From Methanovulcanius yangii (GTDB lineage Archaea > Halobacteriota > Methanomicrobia > Methanomicrobiales > Methanomicrobiaceae), in the NCBI RefSeq assembly GCF_018687785.1, contig NZ_LTBL01000001.1:1789780-1853779 (forward strand): DNA of 64,000 bases. Reading direction: 5' to 3'. Each line of letters starts with the position of its first letter. Within the stretch, counting starts at the first letter, position 1. Under the pieces are notes generated by a model that was not told the origin of the DNA, searched no databases, and worked only from the letters and a program-made list of their open reading frames with translations. Below are positions 12,812 through 29,700 of this stretch, piece after piece. The position numbers and the translations under genes are program-made.

Positions 12812-12813
12812 TA

Positions 12814-12823
12814 TTTTTTTTTT
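12814..12823 (+). terminator. T-run between convergent usp genes
   Basis: Ten consecutive T residues follow the uspA stop codon. The reading gene on the other strand ends 55 bases further on, so this is a likely plus-strand terminator. Confidence 0.5.
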
Positions 12824-12878
12824 AAATTTGCTGATGCGATCGGAGGGTGGGGAGCACATCCTCATCCCCCCACTCGTC

Positions 12879-13346
12879 TCACTCCTCCCTTCTGACCACC
12901 AGCACGGGCTGCTTTGCCGTCCGGATCACCTTCTCGGAGACGGAGCCCAGAAGAGCGCTTGTGATGTTGGAGCGGCCGTGGGAGCCCACCACGATGAGGG
13001 ATGCGTCCCGTGCGTCGGCGATCTTTACGATCTCCTTGGCGGGAACGCCGCTGATGATGATCGGTTCGACCTCGAGGCCCACCTCCTCGAGCATGGCCAT
13101 CAGCTCCTGCATCTTCTCGCGGGCGTGGCGGATGATGCGAGCGTTCAGGTCGCCCTCATAGCGGCCCTCGTCGTCGATAAAACCGGAGGGTTCGCTGATG
13201 ACGACACCGGTCTCGATGGTGTCGAGGACGAAGACGGCGATGACCTTTTTGCATCCGGCCTGGCGCAGGCGCCGGACGTAGTCCTGGGCCCTGACGGAGG
13301 TCTCGGAGAAGTCGGTTGCAAGGACGATGGTCTCAAAGAGCGGCAT
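12879..13346 (-). CDS. Universal stress protein (UspA family), second copy
   Basis: A 155-residue Usp with an insertion of about 15 residues after strand 2 (GVVISEPSGFIDDEGRYEGD). IVLATDFSETS starts the fold, and the ATP loop GSHGRSNITSALLGSVSEK is intact. Strong likeness to the plus-strand copy at 12389 is limited to these motifs, so the pair is not a recent duplication. The thioredoxin-like gene lies upstream on the same strand, 128 bases away. Confidence 0.93.
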   Translation of the reverse strand: MPLFETIVLATDFSETSVRAQDYVRRLRQAGCKKVIAVFVLDTIETGVVISEPSGFIDDEGRYEGDLNARIIRHAREKMQELMAMLEEVGLEVEPIIISGVPAKEIVKIADARDASLIVVGSHGRSNITSALLGSVSEKVIRTAKQPVLVVRREE

Positions 13347-13474
13347 GATGTTCTCTTTTCCCTGATTTTAGATAAATGTGCTTCTTTTCTCGCTTAGAAT
13401 CGCTCTATATGCGACAAATCCTTTTGCCGCCTCTTCCTCATGCCGGCATTTCGGCGGTTGTTGTCCCCCTCTCC

Positions 13475-13867
13475 TCACGCATACCCCGAGATTTCGTAAT
13501 CAATCTCGGTCGACTTCTCGGCACACTCCTTGCCGTGGACGAGCACCTCCTCGATGCGTTTTTTGAGGATGGCGGGATAGACGGCGCCCACGAGGTCCTG
13601 GACCGGTTTTCCGCCGCAGAAGAACTTGAAGGTGGGCGTCGACATCACCCCGTACCGCTCTCCTATCCATGCACTCTCGGCGAGATTGATGCGGGCAAAG
13701 ACGACCTTTCCTGCAAATTCGCCGGAGAATTCGCGGAAATACGGCTCCATCGTCCGGCAGTGTGGACAGGTGGGGGTGTAAAACATCACGATGACGGGGA
13801 TGGTGCTCTTCTCTACCGTCTGTTCCCATGTTAGATCGTTTGCCTCGATGACGCCGTTTCCATTCAT
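13475..13867 (-). CDS. Thioredoxin-like protein
   Basis: A 130-residue thioredoxin-fold protein with the active site PTCPHCRTM near residues 37-45 and the cis-Pro loop VMSTPTFKFF near residue 80. CPHC differs from the CGPC of classical thioredoxins. A short extension (MNGNGVIEANDLTWEQ) precedes the fold and there is no signal peptide, so it is probably a cytoplasmic dithiol reductase or isomerase. I chose ATG 13867, with GGTGG 5-9 bases before it, rather than ATG 13906. A further extra Cys is in KFFCGGK. The region upstream contains a promoter with the shared palindrome about 550 bases away. Confidence 0.88.
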   Translation of the reverse strand: MNGNGVIEANDLTWEQTVEKSTIPVIVMFYTPTCPHCRTMEPYFREFSGEFAGKVVFARINLAESAWIGERYGVMSTPTFKFFCGGKPVQDLVGAVYPAILKKRIEEVLVHGKECAEKSTEIDYEISGYA

Positions 13868-14403
13868 GTCCACCCACTTCCTGAGGCAATACTTTCCGTG
13901 TGACAAAAAAAGGTTTGTGGGGGACGGCGCTCGCGTGGAAATGAATCCGATATCGCATCATTGCGCCCGAAACACTACGTGATGGGTGATGATGTCCAAA
14001 AAAGTGAATAGAGGTGAACCCCGGGGAGCCGGCCCATGCCTGTTCTGCCGGCCCCCCGTTGTTGTCTGCGAGACACTGCTGGTTGGAAACGTTGGTCTCG
14101 TGAAGGTGGTGTGATCTCTGTTGTTCATTTGCCGGACGGGGCGGGTTGGGGGTCTGCCCCGGCCTGCTGATGGGGGTTTTCTGATCTGACCGGACGTCCA
14201 GAGCGGAGAGCTGGGCGTCCTTTGTGGTGGTTGGTGCATTCCTGCTGCAGGTGATTTTGGGCCATGTCCGGCGTCGGGAGACGGACCGGATATGCCCGGG
14301 AACTGCCTGCATGAAGGATCTGTTCTGTTTTGTGTCGAAACCCGTTCGGGCAAAAGGGGGCCTTTGCCCTCCCGGGCCTCTGATCATACCGTCGGCACGA
14401 AGA
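13868..14403 (-). other. Long untranslated stretch downstream of palindrome promoter 1 (possible ncRNA or leader)
   Basis: No frame here has convincing protein composition, although several are open on the minus strand because of base composition. The stretch begins at a well-formed promoter (box 14404-14421) pointing toward the thioredoxin-like gene. It could therefore be a leader of about 520 bases or a separate non-coding RNA. GGCATGGGCCGGCTCCCCGG and other GC-rich inverted segments near 14015-14050 suggest structure. A decayed gene is another possibility. Confidence 0.4.
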
Positions 14404-14455
14404 GGGATAAATGGATAAAATGGCGTGGCGACCATGATGCAACCGGGAGGTTGCA
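14404..14455 (-). promoter_or_regulatory. Palindrome-controlled promoter 1
   Basis: The palindrome TGCAAC-N6-GTTGCA occupies 14438-14455 and is extended to GTGCAACC/GGTTGCA. Sixteen bases downstream on the minus strand stands the box ATTTTATCCATTTATCC (14404-14421). The same palindrome, spacer length and box occur at 15380-15431 and 18657-18709. The palindrome lies where an archaeal activator or upstream-bound regulator would contact the TFB/TBP region. It points toward the thioredoxin-like gene. Confidence 0.75.
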
Positions 14456-14817
14456 CGATGGTGCCGTGCGTTTCCGGCATATCATTGTACGGAGAAGTAT
14501 TCGCCATGCATGCAATCCGGGCAGTGGCATGGAATTCCCTAAAAAGCGTACCGAGCGGCCGGGATGCCGCAGGGGTAATTTTCTGGTCGGTCCGTCTCCT
14601 TCCGGGAATGCGAAAGAAGCAGTGGTAAATGATTTGGAGACGGGGTCCGTGTTCGTTCCGGCATCCCTGCCTCGCCGGTGAAGGAATAAAAAAATGGGGG
14701 GGGTGGCGGATGCCACCATCCCTGCTGTCCGTCGGGACAACAGGTTTCTGAGATGGTCTCTACCTCGGAGGGTGTTGGTGTGGTTACGGAGGTATTCCTC
14801 GAAATGGTTCGCGATCC
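14456..14817. other. Intergenic stretch, nothing recognised
   Basis: About 360 bases lie between palindrome promoter 1 and the stop of the small exported repeat protein. AAAAAAATGGGGGGGG near 14686-14701 is the only notable run. I find no protein-like frame, tRNA or long repeat. Confidence 0.4.
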
Positions 14818-15297
14818 CTACTCGGTTGCTGTGGCGCCATGCCTGAATCCAGCACCGGCACCGTCGGGTCTGTTCTCCTGCATGAAGGTGCGGACGGCTT
14901 CCCTGTCGCCGTTCTCAAGAGCTGTCTCGAGGTCGGTGGTGTCGATGCCGTTCTCCTGCATCATGTGGATCATCTCCCGGATCTGTTCTTCGTTCATCTG
15001 GCGTTCGCCGCTTGGTGCGTCGGGTCTGTTCTCCTGCATGAAGGCGCGGACGGCTTCCCTGTCGCCGTTCTCAAGAGCGGTCTCGAGGTCGGTGGTGTCG
15101 ATGCCGTTCTCCGCCATCTTATGAAGGGCAGCCTGCATCCTCTCGGCGTCACAGGTTCCATCCTGACAGGTGGCGTTCTTTGCCATGCTTCCGCGTCCCG
15201 TTCCGTCACCCATGGCAAACGGTGCTGCCACGGCGGCGCAGACACAGAGGACGGCAAGGCCGGTCACTGCGAGTACTAGTTTTCTGCTGGTCTTCAT
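14818..15297 (-). CDS. Small exported protein with two 52-residue repeats
   Basis: A 159-residue protein with an N-terminal signal peptide (MKTSRKLVLAVTGLAVLCVC, then AAVAAP as cleavage region), so it is probably exported or a surface lipoprotein-like protein (Cys20 is in the hydrophobic part). After CQDGTC come two copies of a helical unit with ENGIDTTDLETALENGDREA and AFMQENRPD, offset by exactly 52 residues. Between them is a Met-rich helix (QIREMIHMMQ). Repeats rich in Met and acidic residues could bind metal, but this is inference. AGGAGATGAGAA gives a good ribosome site. Its promoter holds palindrome 2, with a leader of about 60 bases. Function unknown. Confidence 0.85.
   Translation of the reverse strand: MKTSRKLVLAVTGLAVLCVCAAVAAPFAMGDGTGRGSMAKNATCQDGTCDAERMQAALHKMAENGIDTTDLETALENGDREAVRAFMQENRPDAPSGERQMNEEQIREMIHMMQENGIDTTDLETALENGDREAVRTFMQENRPDGAGAGFRHGATATE
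14863..14956 (-). repeat. Direct repeat copy 1 inside the exported protein gene
   Basis: This 94-base unit recurs at 15019-15112 with only about three differences (for example AGGTGCGG against AGGCGCGG and AGCTGTC against AGCGGTC). The offset is 156 bases, 52 codons. The near identity at DNA level points to a recent in-frame duplication. Confidence 0.9.
15019..15112 (-). repeat. Direct repeat copy 2 inside the exported protein gene
   Basis: Partner of the unit at 14863-14956. It encodes the N-proximal copy of the helical repeat (ENGIDTTDLETALENG). Such repeats can expand or contract by slippage or recombination, so copy number may vary between strains. Confidence 0.9.
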
Positions 15298-15379
15298 TTC
15301 TCATCTCCTGTTCGGTCGGGTCCGGGGGGGACGGTGTTCCCGCCTCGCCGAACCTCTGGGTATGAGGTGCACCCGGTGG

Positions 15380-15431
15380 GGAATAAATGCGTAAAATAGG
15401 GGGGATGTCATGGTGCAACCATGCAGTTGCA
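15380..15431 (-). promoter_or_regulatory. Palindrome-controlled promoter 2
   Basis: The palindrome TGCAAC-N6-GTTGCA lies at 15414-15431 (outer bases extend it to GTGCAAC/GTTGCAC), 16 bases before the box ATTTTACGCATTTATTCC (15380-15397). It is the promoter of the exported repeat protein whose start codon is at 15297, and it stands 20 bases beyond the stop of the ABC permease gene. Downstream of the palindrome CATG follows after one base, as in promoter 1. Confidence 0.78.
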
Positions 15432-15450
15432 CGATGGCACCCCCGGGAGA

Positions 15451-16665
15451 TTATTCGGCCCGGAGGGCCTCGATCGGGTCGAGGTTCGACGCCCGCCATG
15501 CGGGGTACACCCCTGAGATGATGCAGATGACGGCGCCCACGATCATCCCCTCGGGGACATTCACGAGACTGTCGAGGGCGAAGAAGTACTCCGTTGTCCC
15601 CACCATCCCGAAGACGACCACATAGCCGATCACGAGGGAGAGGGCGGCGCCGATGCCGGCACCTACGATGCCGATGATCGCTGCCTCGTAGATGAACATC
15701 CGCAGGATTTCGCCCTTCTGCGTCCCGATGCTGCGGAGGATGCCGATCTCGCGGACCCGTTCGGTAACCGACATCATCATCACATTGAAGATGGAGACCG
15801 CCGCCACGAGAAGCGAGATGCCCGCGATGGCAAGGGCAAAGGTCGTGATCGTGCCAAGGGTCGAGGAGATCGTATCGAGCATCCGGCTGGAGTCCTGAAT
15901 CGAAACTTCATCGTCCTTCTTGTTGAGCGATTCATCAATGCTCTCGGAAATGGCATCGATCTCGTCGATGTCGTCGACGACCACGTTCACCTGCGCATAC
16001 TCGTCCTCCCCGCCGTAGCGCCCGGTGAAGAACTTCTCGGTCGTAATGATCGCACTGTCGGAGTTGATGTCCATCGACATCCCGCGTTCCTCGAGGATGC
16101 CGGTTACGCGGACGGTCGTCGCTCCGTCCTCGTCATCCTCGTCACCGATGGAAATCTTGCTTCCGACCTCGATGCCGTAGCGCTCGACCATGTCCGGCCC
16201 GATGACGACCTGCGACGTCGTCGAGGGGAAACTGCCCTCGGCGAGGGTGAGAATCTCCGTCATCGCGTCATCGTCCATCGCGTAGATGGTGGTGCGGCCG
16301 TTGCTGTCGCCCGTCTCGATGCTATCGCTCTCCGAATAGAGGGAATAGACATACGATGAGCCCGCGGCCTTCCGGATGTCGTCGAACTGGTCGTCCGAGA
16401 TGTAGTCGTCATCGTCGTCGCTACTTCCGCCGCCGCCCGGCATGCCGAAGCTCCCGCCTCCCCCGCTATCCGGTTTTACCACGAGGACATTTGCCGTTGC
16501 CGAGAGCTCTTCCGTGACCGAGAGGGTCATATTGGCAGAGATCATGCCGATAGATGCGATCGCGACGACGCCGATGACAATGCCCAGTGCCGCAAGCACC
16601 GATCGCAGGAGGTTCAGGCGCACGCTGCGCATCGAGAGCTGGAAGATGATGTCGGGTTTCTTCAT
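15451..16665 (-). CDS. ABC transporter permease, MacB/FtsX type (cassette 1)
   Basis: A 404-residue membrane protein with one N-terminal helix (LAALGIVIGVVAIASIGM), a large outside domain (residues 45-270) and three C-terminal helices, the MacB/LolC topology. The family motif EIGILRSIGTQKGEILRMF is present near residue 310, and the end is YPAWRASNLDPIEALRAE. The outer domain has a Gly-rich and Asp-rich insertion (GGGGSSDDDDDYISDD). It overlaps the ATPase gene by four bases. With the ATPase and the S-layer-like protein it should form a mechanotransmission or export complex at the cell surface. Confidence 0.93.
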   Translation of the reverse strand: MKKPDIIFQLSMRSVRLNLLRSVLAALGIVIGVVAIASIGMISANMTLSVTEELSATANVLVVKPDSGGGGSFGMPGGGGSSDDDDDYISDDQFDDIRKAAGSSYVYSLYSESDSIETGDSNGRTTIYAMDDDAMTEILTLAEGSFPSTTSQVVIGPDMVERYGIEVGSKISIGDEDDEDGATTVRVTGILEERGMSMDINSDSAIITTEKFFTGRYGGEDEYAQVNVVVDDIDEIDAISESIDESLNKKDDEVSIQDSSRMLDTISSTLGTITTFALAIAGISLLVAAVSIFNVMMMSVTERVREIGILRSIGTQKGEILRMFIYEAAIIGIVGAGIGAALSLVIGYVVVFGMVGTTEYFFALDSLVNVPEGMIVGAVICIISGVYPAWRASNLDPIEALRAE

Positions 16666-17354
16666 GCAATCCTCCCGTCCTCAATCAGGATCGTCCGGTC
16701 GGCGTACCCGGCCGTTCCCGCGTCATGGGTCACCATGATCACGGTTCGCCCCTGCCGGTTGAGCGTTGCGAGCATCTCCATGATCTGGGTGCTCGTCTTC
16801 GAGTCGAGGTTGCCCGTCGGCTCGTCGCAGAGGAGGATCGCCGGTTCGTTCACGAGCGCACGGGCGACGGCCACCCGCTGCTGCTGGCCGCCGGAGAGCT
16901 CAGCCGGCCGGTGTTCGGCAAGCGCCGCGTCGATGCCCACCGAATCGAGAAGGGCCTGCACCCGGCCGGACGTGTCATACGTCCGGTCTTTGAGGACGAG
17001 GGGGTACTCGACGTTCTCGTAGGCCGTCAGCAGGGGGATCAGGTTGAACTTCTGGAAGATGTAGCCGATCGAGTCGCGCCGGAGCGCCGTGAGGTCATGG
17101 TCGCTGAGCGTGCCGATGTCCTGCCCCTCGATGCGGACGGTCCCTGACGTCGGGACGTCGAGGCAGCCGATCTGGTTCATCAGGGTCGATTTCCCCGACC
17201 CGGACGGCCCCATGATGGCGACGAACTCCCCCTTCCTGATGGTCAGGGTGACCCCGTCGAGGGCGTGGACGTCCCCGGAGAGGAGGGGGTATGTCTTTCG
17301 CACCTCCTCGAGTGCGATAACCGGTGTGGAGGACATGTCTGGTTCCCCCCTCAC
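16662..17354 (-). CDS. ABC transporter ATP-binding protein, MacB/LolD type (cassette 1)
   Basis: A 230-residue ATPase with Walker [10 protein letters not shown] near residue 50, signature [10 protein letters not shown], and Walker [12 protein letters not shown] followed by the switch His in VTHD. These are the standard MacB/LolD features. The start at 17354 gives an ATGA overlap with the preceding gene; an internal ATG at 17336 is an alternative. It powers the permease encoded immediately downstream. Confidence 0.95.
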   Translation of the reverse strand: MRGEPDMSSTPVIALEEVRKTYPLLSGDVHALDGVTLTIRKGEFVAIMGPSGSGKSTLMNQIGCLDVPTSGTVRIEGQDIGTLSDHDLTALRRDSIGYIFQKFNLIPLLTAYENVEYPLVLKDRTYDTSGRVQALLDSVGIDAALAEHRPAELSGGQQQRVAVARALVNEPAILLCDEPTGNLDSKTSTQIMEMLATLNRQGRTVIMVTHDAGTAGYADRTILIEDGRIA

Positions 17355-18613
17355 TTCTTTTTCTGCAGGCGTGCCTGGATGGCATCACGTCCCCGTGCGA
17401 GGTACCCCGTCTTCCAGGCAATGAGACCACCGGCGATGATCAGGATCCCGAGGATGATGGGGATGACGGGAATCCGGGCAAAGCCGCTGCCCATGGAGCC
17501 GAGCGGGTTTCGGTTGCCGCCGGGTCCGCCGGCGGGCATCTGGGGTGATGTCGTCTCGCCATCGCCGTCGGCTGCTGCAACCGCATTTCCGCCGCTTACG
17601 TAGAACGTCTCCTCGTAGATGTTGCCGTCCTCATCCTTGTACGTGACCAGCACCGGGACTTCTCCGGCACCCTGCATCGTATAGGTCACCTCGAATCCGG
17701 AGAAGTCGTCGGGCTCAAGGGCGCCGATGACGGCAACGGGGTTCGGGTTCGTCGCAACGGCGGGGCTTCCCACCGTCACCATGACGGAGTAGGCCTCCTC
17801 GAGGCCGGCGTTCGTCACGTCACCGGAGACCGTTGCGGTCCCGCCGGAGGAGCTGACTGCGACCTCGTTTACCACGAGGTCGGCGCTTGTCTTGTCCGTC
17901 CCGAAGGTCATGGGAATCGAGACGGTGGTGCTGTGCTCGTTGACGCCGTTTTTGTAGCTGATCTCAAAGGTGAGATCCCCCTCCTCGAGGGGTGTGATGG
18001 CAAAGGCGACCTCGGCGGATTCGTCCTTCTCCAGATTGCCCACGAAGTAGCTGGTCCGGTCGCTCTTTACGCTGTCCGTCACCGGGGTGATGGTGATCGC
18101 GCTCAGTTCACCGTCGCGGGGGTTGCCCACGAGGACGGTGATATCCTCGGTCTTCCCCCCGGTGAAGGTCTCGGGGACTCCGAGGAGGGAGACCTGCGGG
18201 CAGGTGTCGTCCACGATCACCGGGATGGAGGTGCGCATGGACCCCGCCGAGGTATAGTCGAGGTAGAAGGACGGGTAGAAGATCCCCTCGGCCGCCTTCG
18301 CCTTCACGGTGAAGGTGAACTCCATGTCGTTGCCCGCCCCGATGTCGCCGACGGTGTCGTAGGCGTTGTCATTGACGACGGCAAGGTCGCTCGTGTAGAG
18401 CTTCGCCCGGTCGATGGAGACGCTCTCGTCCCCGGTGTTCGTAATCTCGACGGTGATAAATCCCTGGTCCCCGGGCATCAGCGTCTCGGGGGTTTTGGTG
18501 ATCCCGGTCACCGCAATCTGGGACGCCGCGTCCGATTCGCCGTCGGTCGCCGCGGCCGCTATGCCGCAGAGGGCCGCAAGGACCAGGAGTGCAATACATA
18601 TTCGTTGGTTCAT
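17351..18613 (-). CDS. Exported S-layer-like/CARDB protein of ABC cassette 1
   Basis: A 420-residue surface protein with a signal peptide (MNQRICIALLVLAALCGIAA), three immunoglobulin-like beta domains of the COG1361/CARDB type (for example VTGITKTPETLMPGDQGFI, DVTNAGLEEAYSVMVTVG), a Pro/Gly-rich linker (QMPAGGPGGNRNPLG) and one C-terminal membrane helix (IPVIPIILGILIIAGGLIAW) with a basic tail. It is first in a three-gene operon with four-base overlaps, so it probably works with the MacB-type transporter as an outside partner. Its promoter carries palindrome 3, with a leader of about 25 bases. A paralogous cassette is at 50224-53227. Confidence 0.9.
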   Translation of the reverse strand: MNQRICIALLVLAALCGIAAAATDGESDAASQIAVTGITKTPETLMPGDQGFITVEITNTGDESVSIDRAKLYTSDLAVVNDNAYDTVGDIGAGNDMEFTFTVKAKAAEGIFYPSFYLDYTSAGSMRTSIPVIVDDTCPQVSLLGVPETFTGGKTEDITVLVGNPRDGELSAITITPVTDSVKSDRTSYFVGNLEKDESAEVAFAITPLEEGDLTFEISYKNGVNEHSTTVSIPMTFGTDKTSADLVVNEVAVSSSGGTATVSGDVTNAGLEEAYSVMVTVGSPAVATNPNPVAVIGALEPDDFSGFEVTYTMQGAGEVPVLVTYKDEDGNIYEETFYVSGGNAVAAADGDGETTSPQMPAGGPGGNRNPLGSMGSGFARIPVIPIILGILIIAGGLIAWKTGYLARGRDAIQARLQKKK

Positions 18614-18656
18614 ATCTCTGCCTCTGTAAAGATGCAGGGAACCCTCTCACGCAAAC

Positions 18657-18709
18657 GGGTATATATGCAGAAAATAGGGGGAGTGGTATGATGCAACCGC
18701 GAGGTTTCA
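18657..18709 (-). promoter_or_regulatory. Palindrome-controlled promoter 3
   Basis: The palindrome here is TGCAAC-N6-GTTTCA (18692-18709), one base off the consensus, 16 bases before the box ATTTTCTGCATATATACCC (18657-18675). The altered base, T18707, is exactly the base that makes the kinase stop codon TGA at 18707-18709. It drives the S-layer-like/ABC cassette 1 operon. Confidence 0.75.
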
Positions 18710-21088
18710 CAGGGCCGCGGATACCATGCGCATTGCCTCTTCGAGCGCCGCCGCCGAGGGGAAGCGCCCCTCCTTCTCCTTTGCGAGGCAGCGCATCACG
18801 ATATCGTCCCAGGGGGCCGCCGCCGGGACCAGTGACGAGGGAGGTGCCGGTGTCTCGGCGAGAATGGCATCCGTCATCTCCCCCAGTCCGCCGTCCCCGA
18901 AGGGGCGCCGGCCGGTGAGGAGTTCGTAGAAGACGACGCCTGTCTGGTAGATGTCCGTCCGGGTGTCGGCCTCGCCGAACCGCCGCGGGGCGATCTGCTC
19001 GGGTGCCGCGTACTGGATCGAGAAGCCCACGATGGAGGACTCATGCCCGTCGCCCATCACGGTCCCCAGCCCCCAGTCGGTGATCCGGGCCGACCCGTCC
19101 TCTGCGAGGAGGATGTTATGCGGCTTGATGTCGCGGTGGATGATGCCGCGGTCGTGGGCATAGGCAAGGCCGCGAACGATGTCGGTGACGATCGCCGCCG
19201 CCTCACCGGGGGGGAGCGGCAGGGTGACTCCGGCAAGGGAGCGGGACACATACTCCATCTCCACATAGGGGACGGGCAGGATATTGACCGAGCAGAGGCG
19301 GACGATGTTCGGGTGGACGAGCCCCTCCCAGAGTTTCATCTCCTTTAAAAATATCCGCCCGGTCGTCTCATCGAAGCTGATGGGAACCTTGACGGCAACG
19401 ACAGCCCCGTCGGACCTGCGGACCGCCCGGAAGACCCGGGCGAGCCCTCCCTTGCCGATGAACGTCACGTCGCGGTACCGGTCCGCAAGGCTTGCAGGGA
19501 AGTACACGTCACGCAGCTGCGTGTCCATGATCCGCGTTTCGTCGAAGGGATCACCTTCATGGGCAATGCGGGTGCGCTCGTCCGTGTCTTCCGGGGCGCC
19601 GGGTGCCACGATGCGGGAGCGGTGGTAGAGGCCGAGGGCGAGGGCGGCGATGGCAAGTCCCAGGCTGAGAGGGACGCCCGGCCCGGCGCCGGCCCTGCCG
19701 GCAAGGAGCAGTGCCGCCGAGGCCACCGCCATGATGCCCGCTGCGATGAGAAATGCGGCGAGGAGATACCGGGGCGTCCGCTCCGTCGCCGTGGATGCCG
19801 CAAGGAAGATCGCAACCATCGAGAGGAAGGCCAGTCCTGCGATGAGAGGATTTGCGCCGGGCACCACACCAAGGACTATGAGGGCCTGGAATCCGGTCAC
19901 AAATATTGCGGAACTGCAGAGGACGGCAAGAATGGTGTACCCCGCCGTCAGGATGAGCGTGGCAGAACCCCTGCGGTCAAGGACGCTCCGGGTGCGGGTA
20001 CGCCGGTCGGCAACCGTAAGTCCCCCGGCAATTGCGAGGGATACGAGAAAGGCGGCGACATTCCAGAGCAGGCTTTCCGGTTCGCCCGGAAAAGTGAAGG
20101 GGGGGCCGCCGTTCGTTCCATTGACGCCGGGCCGCTGTCCCGGTCCCTGCATATCCACGGGGATCCCGGAAGCAGAGGTGACGGTATATGCATCAATACC
20201 TGCGATGAGGGGAGCGTCATCCTCGACTGTGACAGCGCCGGTGAGCTCATCCAGAAGGTCGAGGGGCCGCCGGTTGAACGGGTATTCTCCCCCTTCGTCC
20301 TCCCATGCCCTGAACTGGTCCTTGGAAGGTGACGGGACGATATAGGGCTCATCCCCGATACCGTCGCCGTCGGTGTCGGTTCCTGCATACCCGCTCCAGC
20401 TGTTGCCCACCTGCCCCTCGAACGTGGAGCCTTCATACTGGTAGGTGATCGCAGGCGATGTCCACGTCGTTCCCGGGGATGAAGAGACCGCGCCCAATAT
20501 GGTGGCAAATTCGTTGTAATAGACCGTTGTTCCGTCGGACTCGCTGATCTGGATGCCGATACGCTGCCCCTCGATGAGGTTTCCCGTCACCCGGGTCAGG
20601 TCGGCGTCATAGATGCAGATGCCGACGCTGGTGCCGGGAGAGGCGGTCGCGATCGTCGTGCCGGTGATGATGTTTCTGTCCGAATGCACGAAGATCCCGC
20701 AGGGGACGGTTCCGGTGATGACCAGCCCGTCGACGGTCGTCCCCCCCGCCTTAAGGACGATGGCAGCCTCGCCTTCCGTTGCGACGATCACGGGGAGCCC
20801 TCCCCCGGTATCCGTGCCTAGAATCGTCACCGGGACGTCGGTGGTGAGGGATTCCTCATAGGTGCCGCTTGCCACCGTGATTGTGTCTCCCGGCGCGGCA
20901 TCCGCGAGTGCGGCGGAGATGGTGGCGTAGCCATCCTCACCGACCTGCAGGGATGCAGCGCCTGCAATACAGCAGCACACTCCTGCGACGATCAAAAGGG
21001 CGGCAATGAGGAGCCATCCGGGGCGGATTTCTCCCGTGATGTGTGTTCTCCTGTACGGACCATCGGTCCTTCGGTCGTTCATAGGCAC
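18707..21088 (-). CDS. Transmembrane Ser/Thr protein kinase with extracellular beta-helix domain
   Basis: A 793-residue fusion. A membrane helix near residues 24-45 is followed by a NosD/pectate-lyase-like right-handed beta-helix (GYATISAALADAAPGDTITV, then repeated short strands, to about residue 290), several membrane helices (about 345-505), and a eukaryote-like kinase domain at residues 527-793. The glycine loop is IGKGGLARVF, the ATP Lys is K567 in VAVKVP, the catalytic loop is HRDIKPHN with D653, and the Mg-binding loop is DWG (D671) instead of DFG; APE is present. The outer helix domain may sense polysaccharide or envelope state. It is the last gene of an operon with PP2C and HTH-FHA genes. 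Confidence 0.9.
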   Translation of the reverse strand: MPMNDRRTDGPYRRTHITGEIRPGWLLIAALLIVAGVCCCIAGAASLQVGEDGYATISAALADAAPGDTITVASGTYEESLTTDVPVTILGTDTGGGLPVIVATEGEAAIVLKAGGTTVDGLVITGTVPCGIFVHSDRNIITGTTIATASPGTSVGICIYDADLTRVTGNLIEGQRIGIQISESDGTTVYYNEFATILGAVSSSPGTTWTSPAITYQYEGSTFEGQVGNSWSGYAGTDTDGDGIGDEPYIVPSPSKDQFRAWEDEGGEYPFNRRPLDLLDELTGAVTVEDDAPLIAGIDAYTVTSASGIPVDMQGPGQRPGVNGTNGGPPFTFPGEPESLLWNVAAFLVSLAIAGGLTVADRRTRTRSVLDRRGSATLILTAGYTILAVLCSSAIFVTGFQALIVLGVVPGANPLIAGLAFLSMVAIFLAASTATERTPRYLLAAFLIAAGIMAVASAALLLAGRAGAGPGVPLSLGLAIAALALGLYHRSRIVAPGAPEDTDERTRIAHEGDPFDETRIMDTQLRDVYFPASLADRYRDVTFIGKGGLARVFRAVRRSDGAVVAVKVPISFDETTGRIFLKEMKLWEGLVHPNIVRLCSVNILPVPYVEMEYVSRSLAGVTLPLPPGEAAAIVTDIVRGLAYAHDRGIIHRDIKPHNILLAEDGSARITDWGLGTVMGDGHESSIVGFSIQYAAPEQIAPRRFGEADTRTDIYQTGVVFYELLTGRRPFGDGGLGEMTDAILAETPAPPSSLVPAAAPWDDIVMRCLAKEKEGRFPSAAALEEAMRMVSAAL

Positions 21089-21097
21089 GTCTTCTCT

Positions 21098-21964
21098 CTA
21101 ATCGTCGGCGTCGTCGTCCTCCTCGGCAACGGTGAAGAGGAACCGGACCCCGCGGGGGCCGCGGGCGAGGTCGATGATGTCGCCTGCCATGAGCCGTACC
21201 TCCTTCCCCTGCTCGCAGGGGGTGTCGTTGACCGCGGTGCCGCCGGTGCTCCCTTTGTCGATGATGTACCACGCGCCGTCATGGGAGGTGATCGCGGCGT
21301 GGGGGCGGGATATACGCGTAACAAGGTCGAATTCACGGGAGACGACGATGGCGGCATCGCCGGTGAGGGCTCCCGGCGGAGCGTACCGGACGGGTGCCGC
21401 ACCGTTCTCCGCCGGCAGGGATCCCAGCCGTTTCTCCTCGCGCCCGATACGGGTTGCCGCCTCCTCGAGGGGAAAGGTCTTCCCGTCCGCCGGGCCGCCG
21501 AGGACGAAGAGGACCGGCGTCTCGCCTGCATATTCGCGGGAGACCATCCTGCGCGCCTCCTCCACCTTGTCCGCAAGTTCGCTCCCCTCGATATGGACGT
21601 CAAGGTTGGAGAAGAACCCGAGATTGCGGATGATCTCCTCGATGCCGCCCGGCCGGGTGGTGTACTTCCAGACCGGCAGGGAGCCCCGCGAGGTGGCCCG
21701 CCCGAATCCCGCCTCCTTCGTGATGATCCCGGCGTTGAGCATCTTCTCGAGGTGCTTTTTGGTGTTCACATAGGAGGTGCCGATGGCGGCGGCGATCTCG
21801 CGGGCCTCCATCGGGGCGTGCTCGACAATCTTGAGGATGCGCAGGCGCACCGGGTTGGAAAGGACGTTGAGGTACTCGGAGAGATCTTCGTAGTACTCGG
21901 GATCTTCGGTCATCACCACGGTCTCTGCGTTGCTGTAATCTTCCCTGTCTGTCATCTCCATCAC
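21098..21964 (-). CDS. ArsR-like HTH plus FHA domain protein
   Basis: A 288-residue protein with a winged-helix HTH of ArsR type at about residues 28-85 (LSNPVRLRILKIVEHAPM, YVNTKKHLEKMLNAGII) and a C-terminal FHA domain (SRPHAAITSHDGAWYI, DKGSTGGTAVND). FHA domains bind phosphothreonine, so DNA binding may be switched by the kinase encoded next. The acidic, Thr-containing N-terminus (ETVVMTEDPEYYED) could itself be a phosphorylation site, which is inference. It overlaps the PP2C gene by four bases and precedes the kinase by nine. It is the best local candidate for the regulator of the nearby palindromes. Confidence 0.88.
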   Translation of the reverse strand: MMEMTDREDYSNAETVVMTEDPEYYEDLSEYLNVLSNPVRLRILKIVEHAPMEAREIAAAIGTSYVNTKKHLEKMLNAGIITKEAGFGRATSRGSLPVWKYTTRPGGIEEIIRNLGFFSNLDVHIEGSELADKVEEARRMVSREYAGETPVLFVLGGPADGKTFPLEEAATRIGREEKRLGSLPAENGAAPVRYAPPGALTGDAAIVVSREFDLVTRISRPHAAITSHDGAWYIIDKGSTGGTAVNDTPCEQGKEVRLMAGDIIDLARGPRGVRFLFTVAEEDDDADD

Positions 21965-22725
21965 TCCGTTTGCTCTGAGGAACCGTCGTTTCGCACCCGG
22001 ACGACGATGAGCGTGATGTTGTCGGTCGAGGTCCGGGCAGCCTCTTCCATGAGGAGCCGTGCCGCCTCTGCCGCGTTCATCGCCGCCCCCGCCGCGGTCA
22101 TCGCGTCACGGGAGACGTAGTCGTGCAGACCATCCGATGAGAGAACGAGGGTGTCGCCGGGATGGATGACGTGCGTCCGGCAGTCGGCCACAAAGTCCGC
22201 CCCCAGCGAATGGGTGATGATATTTCCCATCGGGTGGGAAGCGGCCTCCTCCCGGGAGATCACCCCACGGTCCACCAGCCGTTGCACAAAGGAGTGATCG
22301 CGGGTGAGCGGACAGACCGCCCCGTTTCGTATCAGGGTGCATCGGGAGTCTCCCGTATTGCAGAGGGTGACCTCCCGGCCGCAAAACCAGGCGGAGACAA
22401 GGGTCGTCCCCATCCCTGCACGCCGGCCGGTGGCCTGTTCCAGAACCGCCTCATGGGCGAGGGCATGGCCCCGCCGGAGTACATCCCCTGCCGTCTCCGC
22501 TCCGCTGGAAAGATCCGCGTCACGGACCGTCTCACCGAGAATGCGAATGGCAAGCGCGGATGCCACGTCCCCTGCCGCGTGGCCGCCGATACCGTCGGCA
22601 ACGGCGCAGACCAGCCCGTCGCCTGCCGGGGCGGCGCACCAGGCATCCTCGTTGACGGGCCTGACCCCGGCAATGGAGATGGCGCTGCAGTCAAATCGTC
22701 TGCCGGTTGTTGTATTCTCTCTCAT
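21961..22725 (-). CDS. PP2C family Ser/Thr phosphatase
   Basis: A 254-residue PPM/PP2C-type metal-dependent phosphatase. The metal-binding motifs are complete: RPVNEDAW near residue 22, VADGIGGHAAGDVAS near residue 43, NTGDSRCTLIRNG, LSSDGLHDYV and STDNITLIVV. It is soluble. As first gene of the operon with HTH-FHA and kinase genes it should reverse the kinase's phosphorylations. The promoter region at 22765-22796 has a TATA-like box and a single TGCAAC half-site. Confidence 0.94.
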   Translation of the reverse strand: MRENTTTGRRFDCSAISIAGVRPVNEDAWCAAPAGDGLVCAVADGIGGHAAGDVASALAIRILGETVRDADLSSGAETAGDVLRRGHALAHEAVLEQATGRRAGMGTTLVSAWFCGREVTLCNTGDSRCTLIRNGAVCPLTRDHSFVQRLVDRGVISREEAASHPMGNIITHSLGADFVADCRTHVIHPGDTLVLSSDGLHDYVSRDAMTAAGAAMNAAEAARLLMEEAARTSTDNITLIVVRVRNDGSSEQTE

Positions 22726-22764
22726 CTGTCCGACTCGTAGTTAAGGAGGAGATTGGTCTTCACC

Positions 22765-22796
22765 GGTAATAAATGTGGGAAATGGCACCGGTTGCA
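22765..22796 (-). promoter_or_regulatory. Promoter of the PP2C/HTH-FHA/kinase operon
   Basis: On the minus strand ATTTCCCACATTTATTACC resembles the box of the three palindrome promoters. One half-site TGCAAC (22791-22796) stands seven bases before it, but the second half-site and the 16-base spacing are missing. It is therefore only a weak relative of the other three. Confidence 0.45.
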
Positions 22797-22915
22797 TACA
22801 GGCATGACGGCGGGTGACTTCCCTGTCTGTTCCGCCTCTTCTCTTTCGGCGGCATGATAACGGCAATGCAGGCTCTCCGGGAAAAAGCGATGTCCCTGCG
22901 GGGACGAAAAAATGT

Positions 22916-23083
22916 TCATTCTTCCGGAAAGACGGCATTCAGTTTCTGCATGAATGCCCTGTCCGAGAAGACATGGGCGCACTGCTCGGCGAATATCGTT
23001 TCGAGCGATGACAGGTCATCCTCGGATATCGTGGCCATGTATCTGATGCGCCGGGTAAAAACATCGGCTACGTCTGTGCTCAT
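22916..23083 (-). CDS. 55-residue protein of unknown function
   Basis: ATG at 23083 opens a frame of 55 codons ending TGA at 22916-22918. The product starts MSTDVADVFTRRIRYM, continues with an amphipathic acidic stretch ISEDDLSSLETIFAEQ and ends KLNAVFPEE. Composition is balanced and protein-like, and codon use is like that of neighbouring genes. It has no membrane helix. AAAAATATAAATAC on the minus strand, about 35 bases upstream, would serve as promoter, and GGGGG precedes the start. I do not recognise the family. Confidence 0.65.
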   Translation of the reverse strand: MSTDVADVFTRRIRYMATISEDDLSSLETIFAEQCAHVFSDRAFMQKLNAVFPEE

Positions 23084-23108
23084 AAGCCCCCAATGTATAG
23101 GGTCGCGT

Positions 23109-23124
23109 GTTTGTATTTATATTT
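23109..23124 (-). promoter_or_regulatory. TATA-like box of the 55-residue protein gene
   Basis: The minus strand reads AAAAAATATAAATACA, one of the strongest TATA boxes of the window. It is 26-41 bases before the ATG at 23083. Further AT-rich sequence (ATATATTTATTTG) lies just upstream. Confidence 0.55.
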
Positions 23125-23292
23125 TTTGTCTGCACAGCAAATAAATATATACTAATTTTTTGTGTATTTATATACTTAGATCAATGCATGATATGCAAAA
23201 GGGGTTCCATCCACATTCCCGCGGGAAGTCGTGGGATGCCTTTCATTGTCCGGTGTTCTTCGGTGAAAAAACGGGTCGGGAGGGTTCGTCCC

Positions 23293-26200
23293 TCAGTCGG
23301 TATACCTGTGGATTGCCGCGTAGAGCTCTTCCTTGCCGGGGTTCACCTTCACGAGCCGCCCGTTGCCGGCAAACCAGAGATAACAGTCCGGCTCCGTATC
23401 GCCGGTGAGAAGGATGGCGGCCTCCCGGTACATCGCCATCTGGCAGCTGTAGGCCGCATCCGTCCCCTCGTGCCACGACCCGGACTTGTAGTCGATCACC
23501 GCCCATCTCCCATCCGCTGTCCGGATGAGCCGGTCGATACGTCCCGTGCAGTGCCGGCCTTCAATATCCACTGAGAAGGGCACCTCGCACCTGTGGGCGG
23601 TGGCGTCACGGACGAGCGGGAGGGAGAAAAATGCCTCCCGTGCCGCCTCCAGTCTGCGGATATGCTCCGGGCTTCCCGTCTGCCCGGCCCGGAAAAGGGC
23701 GGTTTCGGCGGGCACCCCTGCCATCACCTCGTGGAGGATGATGCCTGCGGATGCCGGCATCCCGGCGTCCGGGGCAGAAAAGAGCCGGGGAACAGGTTTG
23801 GCACTGGTATCTCCCTTCTCGAGACGGCTGACGGTGACTGGCCTGCGGGCCCCTGCCGGGGGGGCGTCACTCCATGGAGGACGGGCAAATGCATCCCTGC
23901 GGGCGGAGGTGCCCAGCGATCCCGGTTCCGGCATCGTCGGCACCGTCCGCCGTTCCTGTGCGGTGATCGCCGCAGGATCGGTGATCACCCGTACACGGGA
24001 TGGTGTTCCGCAGGCATCGGTGTATCCAATCTCTCCCGCGGCAATCGCGTCCTCCCCCATGCCGAGGGCCGCACAGAACCAGTCCATCCGGGAGGTGCCT
24101 GTCTCCACCGCCGGGACGGCGTCCGCTGCCGGCCGCATCCCGGAGAGGATCAGGTGGTCTTCTGCACGTGTCATCGCCACATAGAAGAGCCGTTTTCTCT
24201 CAGCCTTCACCTTCTGGCCGAGGCGGTGATCGATGAGGAGGCGGACCGGCGTATCCGAAAGGATGCCGTCCCCGTCCGGAACCTTCATTCCGATGCCGCA
24301 CTCCTCGTCGACAAGGACGCCGGGGGGCGGGGCGGTGCGGGAGCGGGCCATCCACGGGAGCACCACGATGGGAAACTGGAGGCCCTTGGAGGCATGCACC
24401 GTCATCACCGTGACCGCGTCGCGCACCGATCCCTCGACGGGAGCCTCCTCCTCGTCCCGGCCTGACGCGATCGCATCTGCGAAGTCGCGGGCGCAGTCAT
24501 CGAGGGTGTAGATGGCCGCCTGCCCCCGCTCGCGGATCATGGCGGCAATCTTGCCGAGGTTCGCCGCCATCTGGTCGCCGCCGTCCAGTGCGGCATAAAC
24601 CGCACGAATTCCCGATTCATCGGTGATGCGGGAGATCAGGCGGTTCAGCGGCTCCCTGCGGGCATAGGCGAGCCACCGGTTTAGGAGCGCGGCTGCAAAG
24701 ACGGCCTTCCCCTCGCCGGATCTGCGCAGGCGTCCAAAAAGACCCCGGCCGTTCCCGCCGGCGGCCCGGTAGAGGGCGGCATCCGAAAACCCGAACCACG
24801 GGGACCGCAGGACCCCGTAGAGGGCGAGGTCGTCGTCGGGGCGGGCGAGGAAGGTGAGGAGCGACCCGAAGTCGCGGACCTCCTGTCGCCGGTAGAATCC
24901 CGTGCCGCGGTGGACGTGGAAGGGGATGCCGTAGCGCCCGAAGGCATCCTCGAGGTATTCGAGATTGGTCCGTGACTCGATGAGGACCGCACAGTCCTGC
25001 CATCGGGGAGGGGCAGGGACCCGCTCGTCTCCGTCGCCGGTCGCCGGGTCGTACCCATCCAGCTCCTTTCTCTTCCGGTAGACGGGCTTCGTCTGCCGGG
25101 TGACGATCTCCTGGAGGGAACGGGCGACCATCGTCGCCTCATCGCGGAAGGCCGCCGGTCCCTTCGCCGGCGGTGTGAGGAGGAGGTCGACCGAGCCATG
25201 GTGTTCCTCCCGCCCCTCGGAGGGGGTGATCGGGTCATAGCGGAATTCCCATGGGAGCCGGTCGGAGGCGAAGAGGCGCGAGAAGACGGCATTGACGATG
25301 CCGACCACCGCAGGAGTGCTGCGGAAGTTGATGTCGAGGGCGACGGTGGCCCCCCCGGCCCCTTCGATCTCCTCCATCGTCCGCCGGAACTGGGTCACAT
25401 CGGCGTTGCGGAAGAGATAGATCGACTGTTTGGGGTCGCCCACGACGAAGAGGGAGCCTGCGGCCCCCTCAGCGCCGAGGATGGTGCGGATGATGGAGGC
25501 CTGCAGGGGGTCGGTGTCCTGATATTCGTCGACCATGATGTAGCGGTACCGGCCCCGGAGGTGGTCGCGGGAGATCTCCGGGTGCCGTTCCAGGAACCGC
25601 GCCGTCAGGACGATCATGTCGGTGAAGTCGATGGCGCCGCTCGCTCGTTTGGCTGCCTCGATGAGGGCGGAGAACCGGTGGTACACCGTGGCAAGGTCGC
25701 CAAGGGCGTCGCAGGCCGCCAGCGTTGCCGGTTCCTCCTGTCCGATGGTGACCATGCAGAGGTCGGTCGGTACCGCCTGTGCGACCGCCCTGAGGGAGGT
25801 AAAGGCGGTTCCGAGACGCTCTTTGTCCTCGCCAAGCGTCTTTTTCGAACCCATGTTCGCCCGTCCCTTCACACCGGCGAATTCTGCCATGGCCGCACAG
25901 AATGCCGTCGGCGGGGCGTCCGTACAGATGTCACGGAGGATTGGGGCGACCTCCTTCAGGTACTTCGCCGCAGCATCGCTCTCCCCGGCATACCGGTCGG
26001 CCAGGTCGGCGAGCACCGCCGCTGCCTCCGCCGCCCCTGCGGCACATGCCATATCGCGTATCCGTTCCTGTTCGGTCACAAGCTCAGCCATCCATGTCCG
26101 TATGACGCCGTCACGGTCACGGCTGAGCCGGTCGAAGAATGGTTCTGCGAGGTGACGCCTTCCGTAGAGCTCCCGGAGTGCGGCTTCGAGGGGCCGGTCC

Positions 26201-26700
26201 CCCATCGCCCGCAGGAGGGACATGAGCGGCCCCCGGACGCCCTCCGGCGGATCGGTATGGAAGAGGTCGGTGACGCTCTGCGCGAGGATCCGTTCCAGTT
26301 CGTGCTCCTCGAGGGGGACGAAGCCCGGTTCGACCCCGGCTTCGAGGGCGAACTCGCGCAGGATGCCGGAACAGAAGGCGTGAATGGTGGAGATATGGGC
26401 GAAGAGAAGATCCTCTGCCACCTGTTCCCATTCCTCCCCCGCCTTGTCGGCGACGGCGGCGCGTATCCTGGCCTTCATCTCGGCGGCGGCCTTTTCCGTG
26501 TAGGTGAGGGCGAGAATTCCCCCCACGCCGCCATTTCCGATGCCGTCTCTGCCCGCACTCCCGTTTTCCCCGTCGGGCGCAATCATCCCGAGATACCGGT
26601 TGACGAGGACGAAGGTCTTTCCCGTCCCGGCCCCGGCGGTGACGCAGAGGCTGCCTGCCCTCTCCACCGCCTCCTTCTGTCTCCCCAGCGGCCCGCTCAT
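23293..26700 (-). CDS. AddA/RecB-like UvrD-family helicase-nuclease
   Basis: A 1135-residue protein. The UvrD/Rep helicase part has Walker A VTAGAGTGKTF near residue 25, DEYQDTDPLQ as motif II, and GDPKQSIYLFRNAD and LDINFRST as later motifs. VMTVHASKGLQFPIVVLPW and LFYVAMTRAEDHL complete SF1A. A C-terminal PD-(D/E)XK nuclease follows with GRIDRLIRTADG and AVIDYKSGSW near residue 1080. This domain order is that of AddA. The start at 26700 overlaps the partner gene by four bases. Together they should resect double-strand DNA ends. AddAB is typical of bacteria, so transfer is likely. Confidence 0.92.
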   Translation of the reverse strand: MSGPLGRQKEAVERAGSLCVTAGAGTGKTFVLVNRYLGMIAPDGENGSAGRDGIGNGGVGGILALTYTEKAAAEMKARIRAAVADKAGEEWEQVAEDLLFAHISTIHAFCSGILREFALEAGVEPGFVPLEEHELERILAQSVTDLFHTDPPEGVRGPLMSLLRAMGDRPLEAALRELYGRRHLAEPFFDRLSRDRDGVIRTWMAELVTEQERIRDMACAAGAAEAAAVLADLADRYAGESDAAAKYLKEVAPILRDICTDAPPTAFCAAMAEFAGVKGRANMGSKKTLGEDKERLGTAFTSLRAVAQAVPTDLCMVTIGQEEPATLAACDALGDLATVYHRFSALIEAAKRASGAIDFTDMIVLTARFLERHPEISRDHLRGRYRYIMVDEYQDTDPLQASIIRTILGAEGAAGSLFVVGDPKQSIYLFRNADVTQFRRTMEEIEGAGGATVALDINFRSTPAVVGIVNAVFSRLFASDRLPWEFRYDPITPSEGREEHHGSVDLLLTPPAKGPAAFRDEATMVARSLQEIVTRQTKPVYRKRKELDGYDPATGDGDERVPAPPRWQDCAVLIESRTNLEYLEDAFGRYGIPFHVHRGTGFYRRQEVRDFGSLLTFLARPDDDLALYGVLRSPWFGFSDAALYRAAGGNGRGLFGRLRRSGEGKAVFAAALLNRWLAYARREPLNRLISRITDESGIRAVYAALDGGDQMAANLGKIAAMIRERGQAAIYTLDDCARDFADAIASGRDEEEAPVEGSVRDAVTVMTVHASKGLQFPIVVLPWMARSRTAPPPGVLVDEECGIGMKVPDGDGILSDTPVRLLIDHRLGQKVKAERKRLFYVAMTRAEDHLILSGMRPAADAVPAVETGTSRMDWFCAALGMGEDAIAAGEIGYTDACGTPSRVRVITDPAAITAQERRTVPTMPEPGSLGTSARRDAFARPPWSDAPPAGARRPVTVSRLEKGDTSAKPVPRLFSAPDAGMPASAGIILHEVMAGVPAETALFRAGQTGSPEHIRRLEAAREAFFSLPLVRDATAHRCEVPFSVDIEGRHCTGRIDRLIRTADGRWAVIDYKSGSWHEGTDAAYSCQMAMYREAAILLTGDTEPDCYLWFAGNGRLVKVNPGKEELYAAIHRYTD

Positions 26701-29700
26701 TCGTCGTCCCCTCCGGTATCGTCCGCGGTCTCTCCGCTGTTCAGCGTCCTGAGACGCGAGAACCTGCATATGGATGAATAGTCGCAGTATGTCGGGCACT
26801 TCCGGCTGCCGTCCGAGGGTGGAAACCGGCCCGCACGGATGCCGCCTGCCGCACGGACTGCGGCCGTCACCGCACCGTCGATCATTCCGGCAAAGTCGGC
26901 GTCCGGCGGCATCCGCGTCGGGGAGAGGCTCCCCAGGACCGGGGCACGTGCGGGGTCGTGGCTGATGATGGTGTTCTTCGTATTTCCGCGTTTGATGGTG
27001 TAATAGCTGCAGGCGATGCCCTCCATCCCGGTTGCGGTCTCGAGCGCCCGGAGGTAGAGGGGAAGCTGGAGTGCCCGCCCCTCCCGGATATCCGTCTGCG
27101 TGGGGGCGGTGCCGGTCTTGTAGTCGGTGATCATGCACTCCCCGTCAGCGGACGCGTCCACACGGTCGATGGTGCCCCGGACCCGCAGGGTCTCCCCACC
27201 ACCCGGCACCGCGAGCGGGATGGGGGCGTCCGACAGGGAGGGGCTCCGTTCAGGGATGCCGAAGGACACTTCGAAGAGCGATGGTGCAAGGCCGCTGTCG
27301 GATGCCTGCTCCTCCTCAGCGAGAAACTCGCCGAAGAGGCCCCCCCCGTCCGTGGTTCCGAGCAGCTGCTCTTTTACCACTTCCCAGACCGGCCCTTCCC
27401 AGAAGTACCGCTCCGTCTGCACACGGGCGATCTCCCGGATCAGCCGCTTCGCGTCCTCATGGTCGGCAGGGGCAGGCCTGCCGGAGTGGCCCGCCGCCCG
27501 CCATTCCTCGTAGAACCCCCTCAGGATCTCGTGCACCAGGGAGCCCCGGTCGGCGGCGGAGATCGTCCGTTCCGCATCCGGCATGGCGGCAAGGCCGAGG
27601 ACATGGGTACAGTAGAACCGGAACGGGCAGCCGACGTACATTTCGAGGGAGGTCGGCGACCATGCCCGCTCAGGGCCGAAGCGGCCGGCAAGCTCTGCCG
27701 TGATCTCCTCTTCCCCGGCAAGGATCCCGTCCCATGGGGTGGTGTAGGGCCCTATCCGGCAGGTGGCCTCGGCCCTGATGCGGGAGAGGATATCGTCGGC
27801 CACCGCCCCCTCCGGCAGCCATCCGTCCGCGGGCGGATATCCTGCGGCAATCTCCCTGCCTGCTGCCTCTGCACGGGCCCGTGCGGACCAGGCATTCTCC
27901 GTATCGGGGTCCCAGGCTATGGCACCTGCAGCCTCTGCGGCCGCCCGCAGGAACGGGGACTCTACGAGAGGGGTGCCCCCCTCCCGCTCTGCGGCGCTGA
28001 GATAAATGGTGGACTCTGCGGCGCAGAGGGCGGCAAGAAAGGCGTAGCGCTCCTCCCTGAGTTTCTCTCTCCGGGTCTGGGTTCCCATCCTCCCCTCCTC
28101 GCGTTCGGTCGTATAGGGCAGAAGAGGAGGGATGTCGGGCATCCGGCCGTCGGTGAGGTCCGCAAGGAAGAGGTAGGAGGTATTCATGTGGGCCAGTTCA
28201 CGGATACCGGTCACCTGCACCCGGTCCCGGTCGTTCACCGGGGAGAGACGCATCTCACGGACCATTGCGGTCCAGAGGCCGAGAAACTCACCCTGGGAGA
28301 TCCGCTGGTCCGAGGAGGGCCCGGCCTCCAGGCGCTCCAGGATACTCTTCAGGAGAAGAAGCGCGTCCTCCTCGCCTGCCCGTACGGCGTCGTCGGGTGC
28401 TGGGGGGAGGTGGGGGGCGTCCCATGCGGCAAAGACCTCCTGCAGGGCCCGGACGTGGGCGGCGACCGGGCGCACCCCTTCCAGCGTCTTGAGGCGCGAG
28501 AGGACGTCCATGATGGCCCTCGCCTGTGCGGCAACGGATGCGGCCAGCGCCCGTGCCTGTTCATCACCCTCCTCCGCCTCGGCCGCACGCCGTCCGGCGA
28601 GCCGTTCGAGGCCCCGTTCCCACGAATGGAACCCTTCGGTGATCCCGGCCTCGCGGGCCAGCCGTTCCACGTCGCCGCCGGTCGGGGCTCTGCCGGCCCC
28701 GAAGACGAAGTACGGGGAGGCAAAGAACGCCGCAACATCCTCGCGGCGGTATCTCCCGGCCGGTATGCCCGCTGCGAGCAGGATCGCCTGGACCACGGGG
28801 ATGGTCGCAAGGGACGGGCGGGTGGCAGAGGCATAGGGAATTCCCGCATCGGCAAAGGCATCCTCGAGGAGAGGGGCCGCAGCACGCACATCGGGAAATG
28901 CCACGGTGATCGCTCCGGGAGGGGTGCCGTCGGCCAGCAGGCGGGAGACTACGCCTGCGATCGCCCCGACCTCCGCCTCCCGCGTGGCAGGCCGGGCCGT
29001 CCGGACCTGGCAGACGCCGGTGACCTCCCCGCCGCCGAAGAGCGGCAGCCACCCCGTCTCCCCGGCGGCTATGGTATGGTATTCATCCGCTTCGAGCCAT
29101 TCCCAGCCGTCGGCGAAGACCGCGGGGTTGTGCGCGTAAGGGACGAAGGCCGTGAAGATCCCCTTCCCTCTGGCAAAGGCCGTCAGAAAATCCCGGAGCG
29201 ACGCGGGCGGCTCGTAGAGGCCGTAGGAGATCACATGCCACGGCTCCTCTGCCTCCCGGACGGCCGCGGCGGCGCAGCCGAGGACCGAATCGGCATCCGC
29301 GAGGGTATGATCGGCGAGGAACTCCCTGTAGGCCTCCAGCACCGCCCCCACCTCGGCACTACGATGCCCCTGCAACTCACCGAGGCAGGCCGGATAGTCT
29401 ACTGACCGGGCCTCGATGACCTTTCGCAGGACAGACAGGTCGTCCGCCTGCCGGATGCCGGGCTGGCGGTCCGGCGGAACGAGCGGCGATGCCGCCGGCC
29501 GGCCCTTCAGAACCGCAAGGAAGATTGTTCGCGCCTCGTCTCTCTCGATCACCCGGACCGCGGGGCGATAGCGGTGCAGGATGGCCCGTGCCACCTCCTC
29601 GGGAGTCCCGACGAGATCCGGCAGGAACGGCGACCCTGCCTTCCTCAGTTCGTCCCGCAGTTCCCCTGCGAGTCGCTTGGTCGGCAGGATGAGTGCGGTG

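Follow-up and report, generated by a model that had tools for sequence, protein, structure and literature searches.

Pathways that lead directly from a kinase to a promoter are few even in bacteria. In Mycobacterium tuberculosis, the membrane Ser/Thr kinase PknH phosphorylates EmbR, a transcription factor for cell-envelope genes that carries a helix-turn-helix (HTH) and an FHA domain in one chain (PMC9239209, PMC2877116). Here we describe a locus with similar parts in the archaeon Methanovulcanius yangii, analysed in a window of 64,000 nucleotides (contig NZ_LTBL01000001.1, positions 1,789,780 to 1,853,779), in which neighbouring genes encode a PP2C-type phosphatase, an HTH-FHA protein and a membrane kinase. 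We consider it likely that kinase, HTH-FHA protein, a palindromic DNA site and phosphatase make up a membrane-to-promoter Ser/Thr phosphorylation pathway of Methanomicrobiales that activates surface genes. We found no description of such a system in Methanomicrobiales in the open-access literature, which is weak evidence of novelty, and no described Ser/Thr kinase-to-gene route for methanogens there.

EmbR has an OmpR-type HTH and, between HTH and FHA, a bacterial transcriptional activation domain, and it is the longer protein (its solved chains have 373-379 residues). Unlike EmbR, the HTH-FHA protein has an ArsR-type HTH, a linker of ~45 residues and no activation-domain match in the Pfam scan, and unlike PknH-EmbR the archaeal system has a beta-helix ectodomain, an archaeal promoter with a TATA-phased palindrome and an order-specific protein family. 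Judging from its predicted parts, the system is one that works like PknH-EmbR and is not a member of the EmbR family. ArnA of the Sulfolobales joins a zinc finger, and no winged HTH, to an FHA domain; its partners are ArnB, a vWA protein, and separate kinases. Unlike ArnA and ArnB, the operon proteins give no zinc-finger or vWA match in Pfam; ArnA/ArnB belongs to a different phylum and has no kinase-HTH-FHA operon, and the likeness is that an FHA protein of an archaeon takes part in a transcriptional response under kinase control (PMC6509490, PMC10470591). Promoter binding by an archaeal FHA protein, controlled by phosphorylation, is the subject of Duan and He (2011), a work listed in PMC7226565. 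In DgcB, GarA and OdhI, the FHA domain binds the protein's own N-terminal phosphothreonine (pThr), with hydrophobic residues at +2/+3 (PMC6733907). The HTH-FHA protein likewise has a single conserved Thr in a disordered N-terminal tail with hydrophobic +2/+3 positions, and we propose that the tail is read here too. Metabolic enzymes are the targets of GarA and OdhI, DgcB is itself a diguanylate cyclase, and none of them binds DNA; in the present protein, by contrast, the HTH sits between the tail and the FHA domain. The winged-HTH profile is shared with archaeal ArsR-type regulators such as chain 2p4w, which have neither an FHA domain nor a kinase.

The three open reading frames (ORFs) form a tight minus-strand operon in the order PP2C, HTH-FHA, kinase, with the following features:

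21961..22725, minus strand: PP2C-type Ser/Thr protein phosphatase (eraser), 254 residues; PF13672 (PP2C_2) 9.6e-15, PF00481 5.4e-10
21098..21964, minus strand: HTH-FHA protein (reader); HTH_20 4.1e-8, ArsR HTH_5 3.2e-7, FHA PF00498 1.8e-12
21920..21922, minus strand: T15 codon, residues being counted from the GTG start; proposed phospho-acceptor read by the FHA domain, a function suggested by conservation
18707..21088, minus strand: membrane Ser/Thr kinase (writer), 793 residues; Pkinase 7.5e-39, NosD/beta-helix ectodomain 5.7e-15

The HTH-FHA gene overlaps the PP2C stop by 4 nt, and a 9-nt gap separates it from the kinase gene. Pfam domains and conserved catalytic residues agree with the first-pass annotation, which had read the packed genes as writer, eraser and DNA-binding reader of Ser/Thr phosphorylation, and Pfam matches to both domains bear out its assignment of FHA and ArsR-type HTH to one protein. 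The DGIGGH and TDN motifs are visible in the phosphatase, whose orthologues are 75% identical in locus L045 and 67-71% in Methanogenium. In the Methanogenium cariaci assembly (L049, 9217-13315) several frameshifts break the PP2C, HTH-FHA and kinase frames, through sequencing errors or decay.

Order-wide counts refer to 199 genomes of Methanomicrobiales, the wider distribution search to 393 sampled genomes across the phylum, and locus comparisons to 80 loci taken from records with names, almost all of them those of Methanomicrobiales genera. The HTH-FHA protein occurs in 134 of the 199 genomes, and none was found outside the order among the 393. Directly after its gene comes a kinase gene in nearly all 80 loci, the exceptions being contig ends within ~2 kb. 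Conservation of the operon in Methanomicrobiales holds for reader and kinase, and only in part for the phosphatase, which is attached mainly in Methanomicrobiaceae; by gene neighbourhood, the core unit is the HTH-FHA and kinase pair, an order-wide system. One family of the order (f6) lacks the HTH-FHA protein save for a single genome, G090, in which palindrome, CARDB-ABC-MacB genes and HTH-FHA gene stand in a row. The window genome itself has a second pair of HTH-FHA protein and membrane kinase at 2.09 Mb (G000:C1:2091653-2093812; L044 7654-9812), without PP2C. The HTH-FHA proteins of its two loci are 44% identical, and just after the second kinase gene stands a variant palindrome, GGGAACC-N4-GGTTCCC, followed by a secreted protein.

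The DNA elements of the window that bear on the proposed regulation are these:

18692..18709, minus strand: palindrome TGAAACC-TCGC-GGTTGCA upstream of the exporter operon; kept in L045, L046, L047 and G115
18661..18667, minus strand: TATA-like element at offset 42 from the 18692 palindrome
15414..15431, minus strand: palindrome TGCAACT-GCAT-GGTTGCA upstream of a small secreted protein
14438..14455, minus strand: palindrome TGCAACC-TCCC-GGTTGCA, with a TATA-like element at 14407-14413
22790..22796, minus strand: half-site TGCAACC directly upstream of the CCATTTCCCACATTTAT element of the PP2C-HTH-FHA-kinase operon

The 18692 palindrome overlaps the kinase stop codon (18707-18709), in keeping with the earlier remark that the palindromes adjoin the operon and that one runs into its last gene; by position, it is part of the predicted promoter that serves the CARDB-ABC-MacB operon downstream. 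Allowing up to one mismatch, TGCAACC-N4-GGTTGCA is found only at 14438, 15414 and 18692 in the whole 2.29-Mb genome.

A dyad search that assumed no motif covered 256 four-base dyads with 17 spacers (0-16), or 4352 tests, in the flanks (~700 nt) of 23 operons with HTH-FHA proteins <75% identical, with the rest of the same loci as background. AACC-N4-GGTT ranked top, with 15 matches where 0.42 would be expected (P 1e-18, uncorrected for the 4352 tests), and most of the runners-up are its sub-dyads. The palindrome is present in 23/82 upstream regions vs 7/762 controls. Its place differs between groups: genomes of the Methanoregula and Methanolinea type have it upstream of the HTH-FHA gene, whereas it follows the kinase gene in Methanomicrobiaceae and Methanofollis, as it does at the window genome's second locus. 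The outer base pair at ±8 covaries (25/40 vs 14.2, P 0.0004), and paralogous HTH-FHA loci have their own palindrome variants; such pairs with diverged flanking bases offer material for studying the evolution of specificity. The tie between HTH-FHA protein and palindromes proposed in the first-pass annotation is strongly supported by this phylogenetic footprinting, and we infer that the HTH-FHA protein binds the palindrome. A plain inverted-repeat search near the operon gave GC-rich chance palindromes only. A strict link between one residue of the recognition helix (V in the window copy but E in most of the rest) and the core-adjacent base was dropped because Methanoregula site L112 has the flank of the window.

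The distance from palindrome to promoter is strikingly fixed. Counted from the palindrome start, the TATA-like element stands at an offset of exactly 42 in 31 of 70 palindromes near operons, at 41 in 3 and at 63 in 6, with the remaining offsets nearly empty; 63 equals 42 plus two helical turns (21). This rigid phasing suggests an activator, and regulation by the HTH-FHA protein is probably positive, which would yield a rule for the palindrome-TATA distance of what is likely an activator in archaea. The composite promoter pattern AACC-N4-GGTT-N28-ATWTAT was matched in 82/199 genomes of the order, and its reversed control in 0/199. Genomes with the HTH-FHA protein have the composite in 76/134 cases, vs 6/65 of those without it (Fisher 2.8e-11; 1.2e-7 when stratified by family), P values that overstate independence because the genomes are related. 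Among the six exceptions, G115, with palindromes and seemingly no HTH-FHA protein, was rejected as a counter-example because its contig ends inside the kinase gene; two others, G063 and G100, are real exceptions. In the window genome, three exact composites and one with one mismatch stand at promoters that are credible, and every one of them adjoins one of the two HTH-FHA loci; one further match is likely due to chance.

The HTH-FHA protein consists of an N-terminal tail, an ArsR-type winged HTH (residues ~21-102), a helical linker (106-144) and an FHA domain (150-277). The HTH matches the profile of archaeal ArsR chain 2p4w (4e-4). The FHA domain gives the best model and profile matches to GarA, OdhI, EmbR and DgcB; Foldseek aligns it with GarA (E 1e-6, template-modelling score by target 0.79), and the FHA chain of ArnA (5a8i) is among its structural matches. 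In ArnA the pThr-binding residues are R134, S148 and N170 (PMC10470591). Across the family studied here, Arg175 and His222 are present in 81/81 members, Ser219 in 74/81 (Thr in 7) and Thr240 in 74/81. In the tail, predicted to be disordered, T15 is invariant in 81/81 homologues and followed by hydrophobic residues at +1 to +3, while the neighbouring residues vary. We suspect that T15 is the phosphosite.

The kinase begins with a transmembrane segment, followed by a NosD/right-handed beta-helix ectodomain (~46-340), about five more transmembrane segments and a C-terminal cytosolic kinase domain (538-780). Hanks-type catalytic residues (AVK Lys, HRD, Asn, Asp of DWG, APE Glu) are kept in 70-73 of 73 aligned kinases, and DWG in place of DFG is a hallmark of the family.

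In the scenario that we favour, the kinase would sense the cell surface via its beta-helix ectodomain and phosphorylate the intracellular HTH-FHA protein, most likely at T15. In the manner of GarA, OdhI and DgcB, the FHA domain would then dock on a pThr of its own chain, of the dimer partner or of the kinase juxtamembrane segment, and docking would alter how the ArsR-type HTH dimer binds DNA. Bound to the 18-bp palindrome with its AACC-N4-GGTT core, which lies upstream of the TATA box at a constant spacing in what would be archaeal activator geometry, the dimer would drive a few surface genes, namely those for small secreted proteins and the CARDB-ABC-MacB exporter. PP2C would take the phosphate off and reset the pathway. 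Sensor, reader, eraser, DNA site, promoter geometry and targets can all be named from the sequence, so that the whole chain is testable. A fuller version, in which across the order a kinase controls an ArsR-FHA factor whose own FHA domain reads its N-terminal pThr, a TATA-phased palindrome activates a compact surface and export regulon, and paralogues diverged in palindrome flanks, is more tentative and in our view falls a little short of an even chance.

The predicted targets in the window are:

17351..18613, minus strand: CARDB-domain secreted or anchored protein, first gene of the exporter operon; CARDB 7.3e-9
16662..17354, minus strand: ABC transporter ATPase of the exporter operon; PF00005 1.1e-35
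15451..16665, minus strand: MacB/FtsX-type permease of the exporter operon; MacB_PCD 2.3e-22, FtsX 2e-20
14818..15297, minus strand: small secreted protein with helical repeats, preceded by a palindrome of its own

Where the first ORF after a palindrome-TATA pair is recognisable, it is mostly a small signal-peptide protein or lipoprotein, or the CARDB exporter. Small secreted proteins or lipoproteins of this kind are found in the window (15297) and in L044, L053, L054, L055, L056, L186, L187 and L190, and in Methanoregula one lies on the divergent side of the palindrome. The CARDB exporter stands behind palindrome and TATA in the window, L045-L047, L120 and L189, and the exporter operon with a palindrome also occurs in G090. 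We read these gene types as a cell-surface response, and the signal itself presumably concerns the cell surface. Downstream of the 14438 promoter, the genus conserves the first ~90 bases (region 13906-14437). The promoter was considered as a possible driver of the thioredoxin gene, and no conserved ORF was found in the ~500-nt gap before that gene; the transcript may be the relic of a duplicated secreted-protein gene, or non-coding.

Several observations weigh against the pathway as proposed. The structure model of the HTH-FHA protein is of modest confidence (predicted local distance difference test score, pLDDT, 68). The Asn of the STNGT motif is Gly (Gly241) in 80/81 family members, and phosphopeptide binding may therefore differ from the textbook mode. 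The invariance of T15 could be structural. A number of sites, 14438 included, have no clear ORF behind them, and 58/134 genomes with the HTH-FHA protein lack the exact composite; in some it stands at offset 63, and in the others none was found. Two genomes of the Methanoculleus family, G063 and G100 (L202 and L214; 99% and 95% complete), have good composites and neither HTH-FHA protein nor kinase, so that in them the site may be read by a different protein, or loss of the operon may be recent. These two genomes also favour the idea that the palindromes serve another regulator, encoded or co-selected nearby, with the HTH-FHA protein acting elsewhere. We regard this as improbable, because the motif tops an agnostic search centred on HTH-FHA and kinase operons while other neighbours vary between families, the co-distribution holds within families, G090 has both protein and palindrome in an otherwise lacking family, and paralogous loci carry their own variants. 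Still less credible is a bacterial-type kinase/phosphatase operon gained by transfer, with a promiscuous HTH-FHA protein and no dedicated regulon. PP2C, FHA and Hanks kinases are indeed common in bacteria (PMC6213207), but the HTH-FHA family extends across Methanomicrobiales, appears nowhere else in the sampled phylum and is tracked by dedicated palindromes.

The more serious alternatives concern how the HTH-FHA protein would act. It might bind the palindromes as a repressor, the unphosphorylated dimer blocking surface genes until phosphorylation frees them, as most ArsR proteins do with ligands. The HTH is of the ArsR family, the archaeal ArsR protein 2p4w is among the profile matches, and the half-site abuts the region of the B-recognition element (BRE) and TATA box of the protein's own operon, a position suited to repression. 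A palindrome upstream of TATA at a rigid 42 or 63, however, is easier to reconcile with contact to the basal machinery than with a steric block, and we think repression unlikely, if the strongest of the rivals. The AACC half-site is kept at the same place upstream of the operon in Methanogenium, and autoregulation is possible. Slightly less likely than repression is that the FHA domain only docks the HTH-FHA protein on a phosphorylated juxtamembrane Thr of the kinase as scaffold, with T15 structural and control by membrane sequestration. T-[VI]-[VLI] motifs resembling that of T15 recur in many kinase juxtamembrane segments (e.g., DLTVVFHD in L053, VRTVVQRS in L044), so that docking on the kinase is possible too. 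The juxtamembrane Thr, in contrast to T15, is not strictly conserved, and was dropped as a candidate conserved phosphosite; docking and tail reading are in any case compatible within the activating pathway that we prefer.

Some further observations concern the surroundings. Paralogous CARDB/MacB-type exporter genes, 47% identical, lie at 50242-53224 on the plus strand, where the motif search found no palindrome. Rfam gave no match in 12000-26000. The gene of the small secreted protein contains a 106-nt direct repeat (14862-15123, 94% identical, spaced 156 nt), and the repeat number apparently differs among relatives (L045, L046). At 23293-29795, two very large genes overlap and resemble, as judged by eye, an AddA/AddB-type helicase-nuclease pair, which would be unusual for an archaeon.

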